From NCBI RefSeq assembly GCF_040267685.1, contig NZ_CP158367.1, positions 682,001 through 746,000 on the forward strand: 64,000 bases of DNA, read 5' to 3'. The position numbers and the translations under genes were made by a program. Within the stretch, counting starts at the first letter, position 1; every line of letters begins with the position of its first letter. The stretch is from Proteinivorax tanatarense (GTDB taxonomy: Bacteria; Bacillota; Proteinivoracia; Proteinivoracales; Proteinivoracaceae). Positions 9,119 through 52,827 of this stretch are shown here, piece after piece. The notes beneath the pieces were generated by a model. That model saw only the letters and a program-made list of their open reading frames with translations, was not told where the DNA came from and did not search any database.

Positions 9119-10114
9119 ATGGATTTAACACATTTGCCAAGAAAAAGGTATACAGAGTTTGTTACACCTATTAAAAATATGGAAAAGTTAACTGAAGTTT
9201 TAGGGGGACCTAATTTATACATTAAAAGGGATGACCTATTAGGGCTGACTGCTGGTGGCAATAAAACTAGAAAGCTAGAGTTTTTAATTGCAGATGCCAT
9301 AGAAAAAGGTTCAGACACAATTATTACCGCTGGGGGAGTTCAGTCGAACCATTGTCGTTTGACGTTAGCGGCAGCTAATAAAGAAAACCTAAAATGCATT
9401 TTAGTTCTGGAAGAAAGTGCAGCTGTAAAACATGACACTGAAAGAAGTGGTAACTTCTTTCTTTATCAACTTATGGGGGCAGAGGATGTTAGGATTGTTC
9501 CCAATGGAACTGATGTATTTGAAGAAATGGACAAAGTAGCAGAAGAAGTAGCTATTAAAGGTGGGAAGCCTTATAAAATTCCAGTAGGAGGGTCGAATGC
9601 TATAGGAGCAACGGGATATGTAGCTTGCGCTCAAGAAATTATACAACAATCTTTTTCTGAAGGCATGATTTTTGACTATGTAGTGTGTACTAGTGGAAGT
9701 GGGGGTATGCATGCTGGCTTAGTAACAGGGTTTCAAGCAAACCAAAGTAAAACTAAGGTTTTAGGTATCAGCATAAGTAGAAGTAAAGAACAAATGGAGC
9801 CCAAAGTTATGAAATTGATAAAGGATACGTCCAGCCGTTTAAAACTAGAGAAGACCATTAGTTCTGATACAGTTACTTGTTATGATAATTATATAGGGGA
9901 CGGCTATGCGCTACCCACAAAAGAAATGGTGGGAGCTGTAAAGTTAGTAGCAAAAACCGAAGGGATACTACTGGACCCAGTTTATACAGGTAAAACCATG
10001 TCGGGTTTAATTGATTTAATCAAAAAAGGTCGTTTTGATTCCAAGGATAATGTTTTATTTATTCACTCTGGTGGAGCACCAGCTTTATATGCTTATACTT
10101 CTGAATTTTTGTAA
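9119..10114 (+). CDS. dcyD: D-cysteine desulfhydrase / ACC deaminase family PLP enzyme
   Basis: 331 residues, full length, AGGAGG before ATG. A fold-type II PLP enzyme: AGGNKTRKLEF carries the PLP lysine (about Lys49), GGVQSNHCR the serine/asparagine loop, and CTSGSGGMHAGL the phosphate-binding glycines. DcyD turns D-cysteine into pyruvate, sulfide and ammonia; close relatives act on other D-amino acids or on aminocyclopropane carboxylate, so the substrate is less sure than the family. Last gene of an operon with two membrane proteins 23 bases upstream. No terminator is obvious after it. Confidence 0.8.
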   Translation: MDLTHLPRKRYTEFVTPIKNMEKLTEVLGGPNLYIKRDDLLGLTAGGNKTRKLEFLIADAIEKGSDTIITAGGVQSNHCRLTLAAANKENLKCILVLEESAAVKHDTERSGNFFLYQLMGAEDVRIVPNGTDVFEEMDKVAEEVAIKGGKPYKIPVGGSNAIGATGYVACAQEIIQQSFSEGMIFDYVVCTSGSGGMHAGLVTGFQANQSKTKVLGISISRSKEQMEPKVMKLIKDTSSRLKLEKTISSDTVTCYDNYIGDGYALPTKEMVGAVKLVAKTEGILLDPVYTGKTMSGLIDLIKKGRFDSKDNVLFIHSGGAPALYAYTSEFL

Positions 10115-13713: not shown

Positions 13714-13750
13714 AAGAACCCAACTCAAATATAAAAAGAGTTGGGTTCTT
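13714..13750. terminator. Bidirectional terminator
   Basis: Perfect 13-bp stem (13714-13726 with 13738-13750) between the convergent genes ending at 13707 and 13819. T-rich ends occur on both strands. Confidence 0.85.
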
Positions 13751-13818: not shown

Positions 13819-15375
13819 TTAGTTATCTCTATTTAAAGTTTCTAGGGCTCTGCTAGCGAGACTTTTAAAATTGTCTCTCCATGATGTTGCACCGGATATG
13901 GCATCTAAGTCATCGGGTTGCTGTGTTTGTTGAAAGGTATCTTCCATTTGTTGTACTAATTCCGGAGGGTTAACATCAGGATACTGCTCCTGCCAATTAC
14001 TTAAATAAGGTTCATCAAATTTTTTATTAACCCCATTTCTATAATCACTAAAGTCCACACTAGTCAATTCTTCTCCAGAAGTAGTCAAAAGCAACTGTGG
14101 CCTATCACCTCTAGCGTTCATTTCCCCCATAAATACATAGATTTGGTCATAATTAGCAATATCAGATTGATCAGCTTGGATAAAAGAACCTATGGATAAC
14201 TTTTTAAGGTTTAACCCCCATGATGTGGCACCAGTTGTGGCATCCACTAAATTTGGGTCTTGAGTGTTTATTACATCTTCTTCCCGTTCTTCTATTATGG
14301 AGATAGGGTCAACTTCTGGATAGGCATCTGTCCAGCTTTCCAGATATTCTTGATTTTCTCTTTTAGAGTTGCCGTCTTCATCAATTTCATCATAATAGAA
14401 AGAGCGGATATCTCCGTCAATTACCTCAATAAGTAATTGGGGAGTCCAGCCTCTTTCGCTTGGGTTACCATAAACTTCATAATTGCCATCAATTAACTGA
14501 TAATCTGGTTGGGAGCGTGCTTTACCCAATGCTAAGTTTGATAGCTTGACAAAGTTAGAATAAGAACCGGTAGCTCCTGTGGCCACATCTATATCATTTG
14601 GATTTTGTCTCTTTAGAAGTTGATTTTCCATGTTTTCAATTAAAGCAAGTGGATCCACATCAGGATTTTGGTTTTTCCAGTTCTCTATATATTCGGGATT
14701 GTCTAATTTACTATTGTTGTCTTCATCATATTCGTTATACTCAACGTTGGTTATTTCTCCGTCAGCTATGTCAAGCCTAAGTTGAGGTTGCCAACCTCTA
14801 CCATCTCTTGGTCTAACGGTTACATATTCTCCATCTCCTGGGGGGATGTTTTGGTCAGTTATATATACTGAATTTGCAAATATATTTTCATATATAGACC
14901 ATCCCATAAGAGGAACAATGTCTCTTGATGCAATATAAAAATCATTTTGATATTCAATTATATTTGCAGGAGTTAAATTGGTGTTGTTTAAATACAGCTT
15001 TAAGTCATCATTTTCACCAGGTTGTGGATTTTCAAGTTCTTCATCTTCTGTTATCATCAGTAGAAGATTATCTCCTTGTTCAAAAGTTAGTTCAAATGTG
15101 TCATTGTACTCAGATAACTCCAATGCAGGTAGATATACCAGACCCTTATCTACTATAGGATAGTTTTCAAGATCTAATTCCTCATCGTTTAAGTATATAC
15201 TTCCATCAAACTGATCGTACTCTTGTGGCTGTGCCTCTTCCTCCTCAGGTAGCCCAGTATCTCCATCAGGAGTCGGCTCCTGTCCATCAGGTGTTCCAGT
15301 GTCTCTGGCCAAAAAGAAAATTAGTAGCAAAGCCACTACCACAATTCCTACGATAAAAGACGTTCTTTTTGACAT
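13819..15375 (-). CDS. Membrane-anchored extracellular protein with three FMN-binding-type repeats
   Basis: 518 residues from the ATG at 15375 (AGGAGG upstream; the longer frame to 15480 lacks a site). One transmembrane anchor (about 6-23) and an acidic Pro/Glu linker are followed by a stalk domain resembling the copper amine oxidase N-terminal fold (about 57-175). Then come three repeats of about 110 residues, each 'DGRG.qPqL.l.i.dGeI..v.y.e.de..nsK' and ending in Dxx[ST]GAT: D263-T269, D378-T384 and D491-T497. That is the signature where ApbE enzymes attach FMN covalently to Thr. The protein could therefore carry three flavins outside the cell for electron transfer. No apbE gene is in the window. 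Flavinylation is inferred. Confidence 0.75.
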   Translation of the reverse strand: MSKRTSFIVGIVVVALLLIFFLARDTGTPDGQEPTPDGDTGLPEEEEAQPQEYDQFDGSIYLNDEELDLENYPIVDKGLVYLPALELSEYNDTFELTFEQGDNLLLMITEDEELENPQPGENDDLKLYLNNTNLTPANIIEYQNDFYIASRDIVPLMGWSIYENIFANSVYITDQNIPPGDGEYVTVRPRDGRGWQPQLRLDIADGEITNVEYNEYDEDNNSKLDNPEYIENWKNQNPDVDPLALIENMENQLLKRQNPNDIDVATGATGSYSNFVKLSNLALGKARSQPDYQLIDGNYEVYGNPSERGWTPQLLIEVIDGDIRSFYYDEIDEDGNSKRENQEYLESWTDAYPEVDPISIIEEREEDVINTQDPNLVDATTGATSWGLNLKKLSIGSFIQADQSDIANYDQIYVFMGEMNARGDRPQLLLTTSGEELTSVDFSDYRNGVNKKFDEPYLSNWQEQYPDVNPPELVQQMEDTFQQTQQPDDLDAISGATSWRDNFKSLASRALETLNRDN

Positions 15376-15524
15376 GAAAAAACCTCCTATTGTTTTTATG
15401 TTATATTTTTCTAAGTAACACCGAAAAGACGTCATTATTAGATTGTATTTTGTTGAAATCTGAACCAGCTGTTTGATCATCTATAATATCTATTATTTGA
15501 CATGTTGAGAGGGTTTATACAGAA

Positions 15525-15572
15525 AAAAAGTAAAGGGCTAAATCACTACTATTTTAAGAAGTGATATAGCCC
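15525..15572 (-). terminator. Terminator of the metal exporter gene
   Basis: A 13-bp stem (15535-15547 with 15560-15572, one mismatch). On the minus strand it is followed by a T-run (plus-strand A7 at about 15523-15529). It lies 7 bases past the exporter's stop codon. Confidence 0.8.
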
Positions 15573-15578
15573 AATGTA

Positions 15579-16772
15579 TTAAATAAAAGTTTTAATAATA
15601 TTATCTAAAGCTAACTGAACGTACTGGCCTAAGTCTGTATAAAACTCCAGCCAAAAGATAAACAATCCCATGGCTAATGCTGGTATTTTGTTAATTAACG
15701 TAGCGTAGATAGCACTTCGTCTATCCATAGCTAGCACTGGGAACAAAGCATCGCCATCTTGAGAAATTGCATTAGCAATAAGAGCTGCAAAGGGTACTAG
15801 TCCTTGTGCAAATAAAGCAACAAAAATTATTTGTGGACCACAACCTGGGATTATTCCGACTGCTACAGCTACAAATACAGAGGCTAAACCAGCAGTTAAT
15901 AGGACACCTTCAATTACCTGTTCGCCGGCGGCGTAATCGCCTCCACCTGCTCCTAACACCAATAACTCAAAAGCCATAAATCCTACTAGCACCCATGTGG
16001 TAACGAAAGCTGTTTCTAAGGTACTATGCTTTAAGGTAGCTTTTAGTGATTTAGACTTTGCTTCTTGACTTTCTATACTATCGTCTCTAAGCCATTTTTT
16101 CCCTTTAAACATTATGCCAAGGCATAAAAGAGTTCCTGTAATTCCAATAATATCAGCAAACTCACCTAAGAAAGATGAAACCTCACCTATGTCAATCATT
16201 AATATTTCCATAGTTCCAAAAACCAAACCTACTGCAATTAAAGCCCAGAATATATAAGTTAATTTTAACCCGTTTTTTTGTTGAACTGGTGTTAAGTTGG
16301 GTTTGGGCTTTGTTGTCTTTTTCTGACCTTTTAAAATAGCCATCCTTTCTTTATACTTACCCATAATGAATGTTCCTAAGCTTGTTTTGTCAACTATATA
16401 GCCAGTTATAACCGCTGGTATAAAAGATAGAATGCATACAAGAATGTAATGATATGGGCTAGTTGGTATAAGGACGAAAGCGGAATCTCCCATAGTAGCC
16501 ATTAAAGTAGCTACAACTGTTCCAAAAGTAACGTTCCCCTTGAAGAACAGGGGCATAACAAATACCGCTCCCCCACAGCCTGGGGTTAACCCAAGTAAAG
16601 CACCAAGTACAGGCTGAAACCTTTTGGAACTTTCTATGGATTTAATAAACCTCCCAGATTTCCTGTAATTTATATAGCCAAATAGCAGTAATATTGCTCC
16701 TACAAAAACGCCGACCTCTAAAAAGGCATCTTCCGCACTTTCAAAAAAAAGTCCTAAAATTTCTAAAAACAT
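15579..16772 (-). CDS. Putative 10-TM heavy-metal exporter (ArsP_2-like family)
   Basis: 397 residues, about ten hydrophobic segments. Two halves each carry a PGCG motif in a membrane segment: GLTPGCGGAVFVMPLFF (about 63) and GIIPGCGPQIIFVALFAQG (about 315), each followed by a short Ser/Asp-containing helix (TMGDSAF; SQDGDALFP). This internal duplication with paired Cys is typical of the putative 10TM heavy-metal exporter family. The substrate is not established. It faces a DtxR-family regulator across a 366-base divergent region with repeated TTTAGG/CCTAA sites, so expression is probably metal-responsive. Confidence 0.75.
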   Translation of the reverse strand: MFLEILGLFFESAEDAFLEVGVFVGAILLLFGYINYRKSGRFIKSIESSKRFQPVLGALLGLTPGCGGAVFVMPLFFKGNVTFGTVVATLMATMGDSAFVLIPTSPYHYILVCILSFIPAVITGYIVDKTSLGTFIMGKYKERMAILKGQKKTTKPKPNLTPVQQKNGLKLTYIFWALIAVGLVFGTMEILMIDIGEVSSFLGEFADIIGITGTLLCLGIMFKGKKWLRDDSIESQEAKSKSLKATLKHSTLETAFVTTWVLVGFMAFELLVLGAGGGDYAAGEQVIEGVLLTAGLASVFVAVAVGIIPGCGPQIIFVALFAQGLVPFAALIANAISQDGDALFPVLAMDRRSAIYATLINKIPALAMGLFIFWLEFYTDLGQYVQLALDNIIKTFI

Positions 16773-17138: not shown

Positions 17139-17618
17139 GTGAATGAAAAGTTTCGTACTGTAAGGGGATATAAGTTAACTAATCAAGCCGTTGATAAATT
17201 AACTTCAAGTATGGAAGACTATTTAGAGATGATTTACCGTTTTTATCAAACTGAAGGAATGAGAGTTACAGATTTAGCTAAGTATTTGAACGTTAGAGAA
17301 TCTTCGGTTACAAAAATGATGCAACGATTAGCAGATTTGGGGTTAGTAAGTTATAAAAAGTATGGTACAATAAAATTAACAAAAAAAGGTGAAGAGATTG
17401 GTGGCTTTTTACTTAGCAGACATAAAATTGTTGAGCTTTTTTTAAAGAATATCTGCTTAAACTCAGTTAGTATAAAAGATGTAGAACTGATAGAGCACAA
17501 TTGTTCTTTGGAAACTTTACACTCTTTTCATACATTCAATAGTTTTTTAAGTTGCCACCCGGAATTCAAAACTCAGCTTTTAGATTTTAAAACTGAGTTT
17601 ACCAAAAGTAACACCTAA
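17139..17618 (+). CDS. DtxR/MntR-family metal-dependent transcriptional regulator
   Basis: 159 residues from GTG (AAAAGGGGGAG upstream). The winged helix is plain: SMEDYLEMIYRFYQ, VTDLAKYLNVRESSVTKMMQRLADLGLVSYKKYGTIKLTKKGEEIG. Then comes a dimerisation/metal region with LLSRHKIVELFLKNI and VELIEHNCSLETL, matching 'R H.l.e.fL...lg' and 'd...a..iEH..s....'. No SH3-like third domain, so it is MntR-sized (slightly longer). It likely senses Mn or Fe and controls the divergent exporter. A TVP38-like gene starts 32 bases downstream. Confidence 0.85.
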   Translation: MNEKFRTVRGYKLTNQAVDKLTSSMEDYLEMIYRFYQTEGMRVTDLAKYLNVRESSVTKMMQRLADLGLVSYKKYGTIKLTKKGEEIGGFLLSRHKIVELFLKNICLNSVSIKDVELIEHNCSLETLHSFHTFNSFLSCHPEFKTQLLDFKTEFTKSNT

Positions 17619-51171: not shown

Positions 51172-52827
51172 ATGAAAGTTCTAATAATTGGTGGTGTCGC
51201 TGGAGGAGCAAGCGCAGCTGCTAGGCTTCGTAGGGTTACAGAAGAAGCTGAAATAATAATGTTTGAACGAGGAGAGCACATATCATTTGCCAATTGTGGA
51301 CTGCCTTATTATATAGGAGGCACAATAAAGGAGCGGGAAAACCTTTTAGTCCAAACGGTAGAGGGTATGGAGGGAAGGTTTGGAATTGATGTTAGGGTAA
51401 AAAGTGAAATCACAAAAATTGACCGTGAAAATAAAAAGGTCCACGTAAAAAACTGGGGCACTAACGAGCAGTATGAGGAAAGCTACGACTATTTAATTCT
51501 TTCGCCAGGAGCTAAACCTATTAAATTCCCGATACCAGGTATAGATAGCGAACATATTTTTAGCCTTAGAAGCTTAGAGGATACTGATAACATTACTGAC
51601 TTTATTGAGACAGAAAAACCTAAAAAAGCAGTGGTAGTAGGTGGAGGATTTATTGGGCTTGAGATGGTTGAAAACCTTATAGATAGGGGACTAGACACAA
51701 GCCTTGTTGAGGCATTAGATCAGGTTATGCCCCCTTTAGACTATGAGATGGCCGCTATAGTTCAGAAGCATTTAAAAGATAAAGGAGCAAAGCTATATCT
51801 TTCCGACAAGGCAATATCTTTTGAGAACCAAAAGGTTACTTTAGATAGCAAAAAAGAGTTAGATGCAGACCTGGTAATTCTATCAATTGGCGTAGCGCCG
51901 GAATCAGACTTAGCTAAAGAGACAGGTCTAGGCTTAGGTCAACGAGGGACTATAAAAGTTAATAAATATCTCCAAACTTCCGATCCATCAATTTATGCCG
52001 TAGGCGATGTTATTGAGGTAGAAGATTTAGTTAACAAAGCTCCTACCTTTATACCACTAGCAGGCCCAGCAAATAGACAAGGAAGGATTGCAGCAAACAA
52101 TGTGGGTGGCCAAAGAGAAGTTTATCATGGTAGTCAAGGCACTAGTATAGCTAAAGTATTTGACTATACAGTAGCAGCAACGGGAAATAGTGAAAAGGTA
52201 TTAAAAAAGCTGGGGATAAAATACTGCACATCCTACACCAACTCTGCCTCCCATGCTGGGTATTTTCCTGGAGCTATACCCATGACCGTAAAGACCATTT
52301 GTGATTTGAAAGGTAAGGTGCTAGGGGCACAAATAGTCGGTCAAAAAGGTGTGGATAAAAGAATAGACGTTTTTGCAACCTCCATAAAAGCGGGAATGAA
52401 TGTTGAAGATTTAGAACAGCTAGAATTAGCTTACGCTCCACCGTATTCTACTGCTAAAGATCCAGTAAATGTCGCAGGGTTTGTGGCAAACAATACCTTA
52501 AAGGGAGACATGGATATAATACATTGGCATGAGATAGACTCAATACTAGGAAGCGAAAGGTATTTAATCGTTGATGTAAGAACAAAAGAAGAGTTTGATA
52601 ATGGACATATTGAAAACTCTGTTCATATTCCTATAGATGAGTTTAGGGATAACTGGCAGCAAATACCCAAAGATAAAGAAATAATTTTAATTTGCCAAAC
52701 TGGATTGCGCTCGTATTTAGCAGGTAGGCTTCTTGCGCAAAAGGGTTATAGCGATGTAAAGAATCTAAGTGGTGGATATTATATCTATAATATGGCAACA
52801 ACAGAGAAAAAAGAATTAAGTTCATAG
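51172..52827 (+). CDS. CoA-disulfide / NADH-dependent persulfide reductase with rhodanese domain
   Basis: 551 residues. Two-FAD/NAD Rossmann fold (IIGGVAGGASAAARLRR; VVVGGGFIGLEMVENL), redox Cys42 in SFANCGLPYYIGG, FAD motif YAVGDVIEV, dimer domain, then a C-terminal rhodanese domain (about 460-551) with active Cys in LICQTGLRSYLAGR. This fusion reduces CoA disulfide, CoA persulfide or polysulfide with NAD(P)H, protecting against oxidative and sulfur stress or producing sulfide. Single gene with its own terminator. Confidence 0.93.
   Translation: MKVLIIGGVAGGASAAARLRRVTEEAEIIMFERGEHISFANCGLPYYIGGTIKERENLLVQTVEGMEGRFGIDVRVKSEITKIDRENKKVHVKNWGTNEQYEESYDYLILSPGAKPIKFPIPGIDSEHIFSLRSLEDTDNITDFIETEKPKKAVVVGGGFIGLEMVENLIDRGLDTSLVEALDQVMPPLDYEMAAIVQKHLKDKGAKLYLSDKAISFENQKVTLDSKKELDADLVILSIGVAPESDLAKETGLGLGQRGTIKVNKYLQTSDPSIYAVGDVIEVEDLVNKAPTFIPLAGPANRQGRIAANNVGGQREVYHGSQGTSIAKVFDYTVAATGNSEKVLKKLGIKYCTSYTNSASHAGYFPGAIPMTVKTICDLKGKVLGAQIVGQKGVDKRIDVFATSIKAGMNVEDLEQLELAYAPPYSTAKDPVNVAGFVANNTLKGDMDIIHWHEIDSILGSERYLIVDVRTKEEFDNGHIENSVHIPIDEFRDNWQQIPKDKEIILICQTGLRSYLAGRLLAQKGYSDVKNLSGGYYIYNMATTEKKELSS

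Follow-up and report, generated by a model that had tools for sequence, protein, structure and literature searches.

According to our analysis, the minus strand of the 64,000-nucleotide stretch examined here (the window), which comes from an anaerobic bacterium, encodes, at positions 13819..15375, a protein of 518 amino acids plus stop that starts with MSKRTSFIVG and in which a membrane helix, an acidic linker and a stalk domain precede three FMN-bind repeats. The start codon is supported by a ribosome-binding site read from the sequence, AGGAGG (15383..15388, minus strand), 7 bases upstream of the ATG. Strong terminator hairpins, both on the minus strand and both followed by T-rich stretches, lie on either side of the gene: one is 3' of the upstream ArsP_2-family gene (15535..15572; -19.4 kcal/mol, z = -5.6) and the other is 3' of the gene itself (13714..13750; -20.6 kcal/mol, z = -6.8), so that the gene is probably transcribed alone, as a single-gene transcript. 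It stands outside any rnf or apbE operon, and its neighbours are common to the same genus only and differ in other genera. The ArsP_2-family transporter gene (window 15579-16772, minus) adjoins it in the sister species too; we considered a functional link between the two and deem it weak, since they adjoin in the same genus only and are separated by a terminator. Beside the transporter gene lies a gene encoding an MntR-like regulator (window 17139-17618, plus strand; 114.9 bits against a cut-off of 138). Elsewhere in the window, positions 9119-10114 (plus strand) encode a PLP enzyme whose score with the model of D-cysteate sulfo-lyase CuyA, 471.8 bits, is above that model's threshold of 450 bits, which suggests sulfonate use.

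The first-pass annotation described an N-terminal membrane anchor, an acidic linker and a stalk domain in this protein, and all three can be recognised in its sequence. The anchor corresponds to a hydrophobic helix at residues 5-23 (15307..15363, minus) which has no lipobox cysteine and is therefore read as probably uncleaved; residues 3-24 are the best-scored portion of an otherwise poor full-length AlphaFold model, whose overall pLDDT of 40, obtained from two sequences, makes it unusable for judging shape or flavin spacing. The helix is followed by an acidic, proline-rich linker at residues 25-52 (15220..15303, minus), and the protein as a whole is acidic, with a pI of about 4.05 and 104 Asp plus Glu against 33 Lys plus Arg. 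The succession of a hydrophobic N-terminal helix and an acidic segment predicts an extracytoplasmic location. The stalk domain, residues 53-178 (14842..15219, minus), resembles Cu_amine_oxidN1 (PF07833) with 12.8 bits, below the cut-off of 24.2. Two homologues with the same layout exceed this cut-off, namely, an ortholog (L018; 29.8 bits) and a protein of Alkaliphilus peptidifermentans (40.5 bits), and on this ground the PF07833 domain is inferred by homology in the present protein, where it would probably serve for dimerisation.

The three repeats score differently with different models. With the Pfam FMN_bind HMM, which had been proposed as a check on each repeat, the whole protein scores 41.7 bits (cut-off, 22). 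Taken alone, repeat 1 (residues 179-290; 14506..14841, minus) lies above the cut-off with 23.9 bits, whereas repeat 3 (residues 408-518; 13822..14154, minus) remains below it with 17.6 bits and repeat 2 (residues 294-404; 14164..14496, minus) gives no match. All three are recognised by an HMM of the PplA domain, with 55.8, 51.3, and 34.1 bits for repeats 1, 2, and 3, respectively. This HMM was trained only on two-domain PplA-like proteins of other genomes and is independent of the query; its search space was set to 20 sequences, and on that account its bit scores, not its E-values, are to be relied on. Among known structures, repeat 1 matches 3o6u with an E-value of 2e-11, and a profile of six repeats, those of this protein and of the Alkaliphilus homologue, matches 3o6u (1.6e-19), 2kzx (2e-10), and, weakly, domain 1 of CbFMN4.

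The earlier reading had been made to hinge on the FMN-bind fold, and the repeat that is weakest in Pfam, repeat 2, adopts this fold confidently in an AlphaFold model built from a six-row alignment (pLDDT, 86). The model superposes on 3o6u with a TM score of 0.87 (rmsd, 1.8), on 2kzx with 0.63, and on 8p2b, which is CbFMN4 domain 1, with 0.54. All three repeats are thus FMN-binding domains, as given by HMM for each of them and by the fold model for repeat 2. In having several FMN domains, here predicted to bind FMN covalently, within one secreted protein of related fold, the protein is like SaFMN3 and CbFMN4 (PMC10339131). However, the domains of those proteins are more than 80% identical and are joined by flexible linkers, whereas here repeats 1 and 3 share 41% and 30% identity, respectively, with repeat 2 and the linkers between repeats are short. 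Scans of viral contigs yielded no relatives of the protein, and a viral fold library gave no significant match.

Each repeat carries near its end a Dxx[ST]GAT flavinylation motif. The residue positions given for these motifs in the first-pass annotation, which did not state the strand, are exact in the minus-strand translation: DVATGAT at residues 263-269 (14569..14589), DATTGAT at residues 378-384 (14224..14244), and DAISGAT at residues 491-497 (13885..13905). A protein of this composition is expected to contain 0.0009 such motifs, and at least one was found in 14 of 20,000 shuffled sequences. This rarity, together with the regular spacing of 115 and 113 residues within homologous repeats, indicates that the three motifs are not due to chance. 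With two or more FMN_bind domains, an intact Dxx[ST]GAT in each of them, and an ApbE encoded in the genome, the protein is a predicted member of the multi-flavinylated proteins, and its sequence makes three covalent flavins likely.

Full-length orthologs occur in 4 of the 13 genomes of the class, this genome counted, and the other three are 75, 51, and 49% identical to the protein. In a sample of 398 genomes of the phylum, all further matches were shorter and belonged to the PplA-like proteins with two domains. A more distant homologue of the same layout, 30% identical, is encoded in Alkaliphilus peptidifermentans (L029:9641-11203, plus strand), where it is divergently adjoined by apbE; judging from its start, this homologue appears to carry a cleavable signal peptide instead of an anchor. 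These comparisons bear on the possibility that the fold has been kept while only some of the sites are flavinylated, the protein having a sensing or structural role. Such a reading could appeal to repeat 3, which with its 34 bits departs furthest from the PplA domain, and to motif 1 of the Alkaliphilus homologue, which is altered to DLVTSAT. We consider it quite improbable, given that none of the four class orthologs has lost a motif, with the D, G, A, and T of every motif, final threonine included, invariant among them, and that in these orthologs the conservation of repeat 3 (61-77% identity) equals that of the other repeats.

The enzyme for flavin attachment is encoded far from the locus. 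The earlier statement that no apbE lies nearby is correct insofar as none was found within the 64-kb window, but the machinery is not lacking: the genome encodes one ApbE (279.5 bits, E = 3.3e-83), whose gene is located 1.1 Mb away from the gene studied here, in the Rnf operon (L010). The order of genes in this operon is rnfCDGEAB, a MOSC/MoCF fusion, apbE, a NusG_II gene (90 bits), and a PF07456 gene (115 bits). The fusion gene between rnfB and apbE (L010:10238-11152, minus) combines MOSC and MoCF_biosynth domains. PF07456 is the EetB family, and the EetB-type gene is adjacent to apbE and NusG_II; in Listeria, EetB is the ECF-S substrate-binding subunit of an FAD exporter which supplies flavinylation (PMC9973259). 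ECF-T candidates are also present in the genome. The RnfG protein of the operon (L010:13267-14724, minus) contains four FMN_bind domains, i.e., RnfG plus three extra ones, and scores 204.7 bits with FMN_bind and 139 bits with TIGR01947, while a motif scan detected DTTTGAT in the RnfD-family protein. Throughout the class, open frames with multiple FMN_bind matches were observed, and all 13 genomes encode both ApbE and FMN_bind proteins. Since the gene for the present protein occurs in only 4 of these 13 genomes, it is not an obligatory partner of Rnf.

The repeats are closest to those of PplA, the lipoprotein of extracellular electron transfer (EET) in Listeria, a relationship seen both with the NCBIfam PplA model (NF041941; 134.2 bits) and in the match to Listeria pplA by tblastn. 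It may accordingly be asked whether the protein acts as a PplA-like relay supplied with electrons, as in Listeria EET, from a quinone and a dedicated NADH dehydrogenase, all the more as the PplA-like two-domain genes of other Bacillota are found among UbiA-family, polyprenyl-synthase, and Ndh2-DoxX genes. Several results run against this. The homology of the FMN-bind domains notwithstanding, the score falls far short of the PplA family cut-off (134 versus 325 bits), and the PplA type has two domains and a lipid anchor, whereas the present protein has a third domain and a stalk and is anchored by a transmembrane helix. When the genome was searched with an EET-type Ndh2 (Pyr_redox_2 plus DoxX, taken from L041), only FAD domains were matched and no Ndh2 with a DoxX or other membrane domain was found, so that the search for an apbE and an Ndh2-like partner suggested earlier succeeded for the former only. 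Likewise, HMM searches detected a UbiA-family prenyltransferase in 0 of 13 class genomes and in 14 of 14 control genomes, an HMM-based absence which is not proof and in which one class genome is less than 90% complete.

This genome therefore shares with the Listeria EET system ApbE and the EetB-type FAD exporter but has no detected EET-type Ndh2 or quinone prenyltransferase. The Listeria pathway needs both, as it comprises an Ndh2 with a membrane domain and a demethylmenaquinone pathway, and a direct copy of it is therefore unlikely here; we regard the PplA-like relay as highly improbable. The best match to the Ndh2 query in the genome lies within the window (51172-52827, plus strand). We rejected this NADH-dehydrogenase-like protein as a partner, since it is of the CoA-disulfide-reductase type (524.8 bits against a cut-off of 578.8), with a C-terminal rhodanese domain and without a membrane part; the earlier observation that no NADH dehydrogenase partner is nearby is consistent with this assignment of its FAD domain. 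Two Listeria records in the plasmid collection, NZ_CP030101.1 (2.9 Mb) and NZ_LR134400.1 (0.6 Mb), carry pplA and look chromosomal.

With an EET-type Ndh2 and a quinone prenyltransferase not detected, Rnf is left as the best candidate electron source, and it is likely the donor to the protein. According to the scheme that we favour, and which we hold to be fairly likely as a whole, the membrane-anchored extracytoplasmic protein would present three FMN-bind domains on its PF07833-like, probably dimerising stalk; the single ApbE of the Rnf operon would flavinylate every Dxx[ST]GAT with FMN at its terminal threonine, using FAD that the EetB-type ECF transporter would supply. The protein would then relay electrons on the outer side of the membrane or in the wall. 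Their most likely source would be the Rnf complex, by way of its four-flavin RnfG, and their destination an acceptor or reductase outside the cytoplasm. Of this scheme, we infer the attachment of the flavins, the dimerisation, the donor role of Rnf, and what the acceptor is. The first-pass annotation compared the protein with a wire and suggested a part in extracellular electron transfer, a role that is a plausible but unproven hypothesis. A further-reaching version, in which anaerobes without the Listeria-type pathway would possess a flavin-only extracellular route, free of quinone and NADH dehydrogenase and leading from ferredoxin through Rnf and the four-flavin RnfG to the three-flavin relay with about seven covalent flavins in series, seems rather unlikely to us.

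Alternatively, the protein may not be a wire but a flavinylated partner which hands electrons to an extracytoplasmic FMN/FAD reductase, soluble or located in the wall, such as a lipoprotein combining FMN_bind and FAD_binding_2. The genome does encode one (L012:6207-7982, minus), with 63.7 bits for FMN_bind, 272.6 bits for FAD_binding_2, and 479 bits for the flavocytochrome c family. However, the two genes are far apart on the chromosome with no context linking them, and the reductase already has an FMN domain of its own, for which reasons we find this arrangement doubtful. As an observation in its own right, the lipoprotein-like, flavocytochrome-c-type reductase with its one FMN_bind domain is a possible extracytoplasmic terminal reductase.

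Related proteins have been described in the literature. Multi-flavinylated proteins with up to 13 sites have been reported in 1530 genomes, together with multi-flavinylated RnfG, and the same work proposed a route from Rnf to multiflavin proteins and drew the analogy with multiheme proteins (Meheust et al. 2021, PMC8238504), so that a comparison of this kind is not new. Such a multi-flavinylated RnfG is also encoded in this genome, inside the Rnf operon; RnfG is a subunit of Rnf, whereas the gene for the protein described here lies outside that operon and its product includes a PF07833-like stalk. Two multi-flavinylated proteins have been purified and shown to contain covalent FMN, with a potential of -184 mV for one of them (Tong et al. 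2023, PMC10339131). In another published group, three FMN-bind1 domains follow PF07833, which is N-terminal and serves for dimerisation; this group has been described as a "three-petaled flower" forming a two-flower bouquet, and it is characterised by a pseudo-threefold head and a homodimer (Huang et al. 2024, mSystems, PMC11334425, Fig 3C). The present protein resembles these flower proteins in its predicted extracytoplasmic location and in having a PF07833-like domain followed by three FMN-bind domains in the same order; its own PF07833 score is below the cut-off, and the likeness concerns the published domain layout. As this architecture has already been published, a categorically new kind of protein is ruled out.

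Multi-flavin proteins have been proposed as the flavin counterparts of multiheme cytochromes, and the literature surveyed shows none moving electrons over distance. Here, an Rnf operon containing the sole apbE and a four-flavin RnfG is combined, in one genome, with a separately encoded three-flavin protein and with no detectable quinone prenyltransferase or EET-type Ndh2, and this set of genes makes the route from Rnf to multiflavin proteins testable with fewer competing pathways. The same genome also encodes a lipoprotein with two FMN_bind domains (L011:7846-8601, plus strand), in which the second motif, EVFTGAT, has glutamate at the position where aspartate is normally found.
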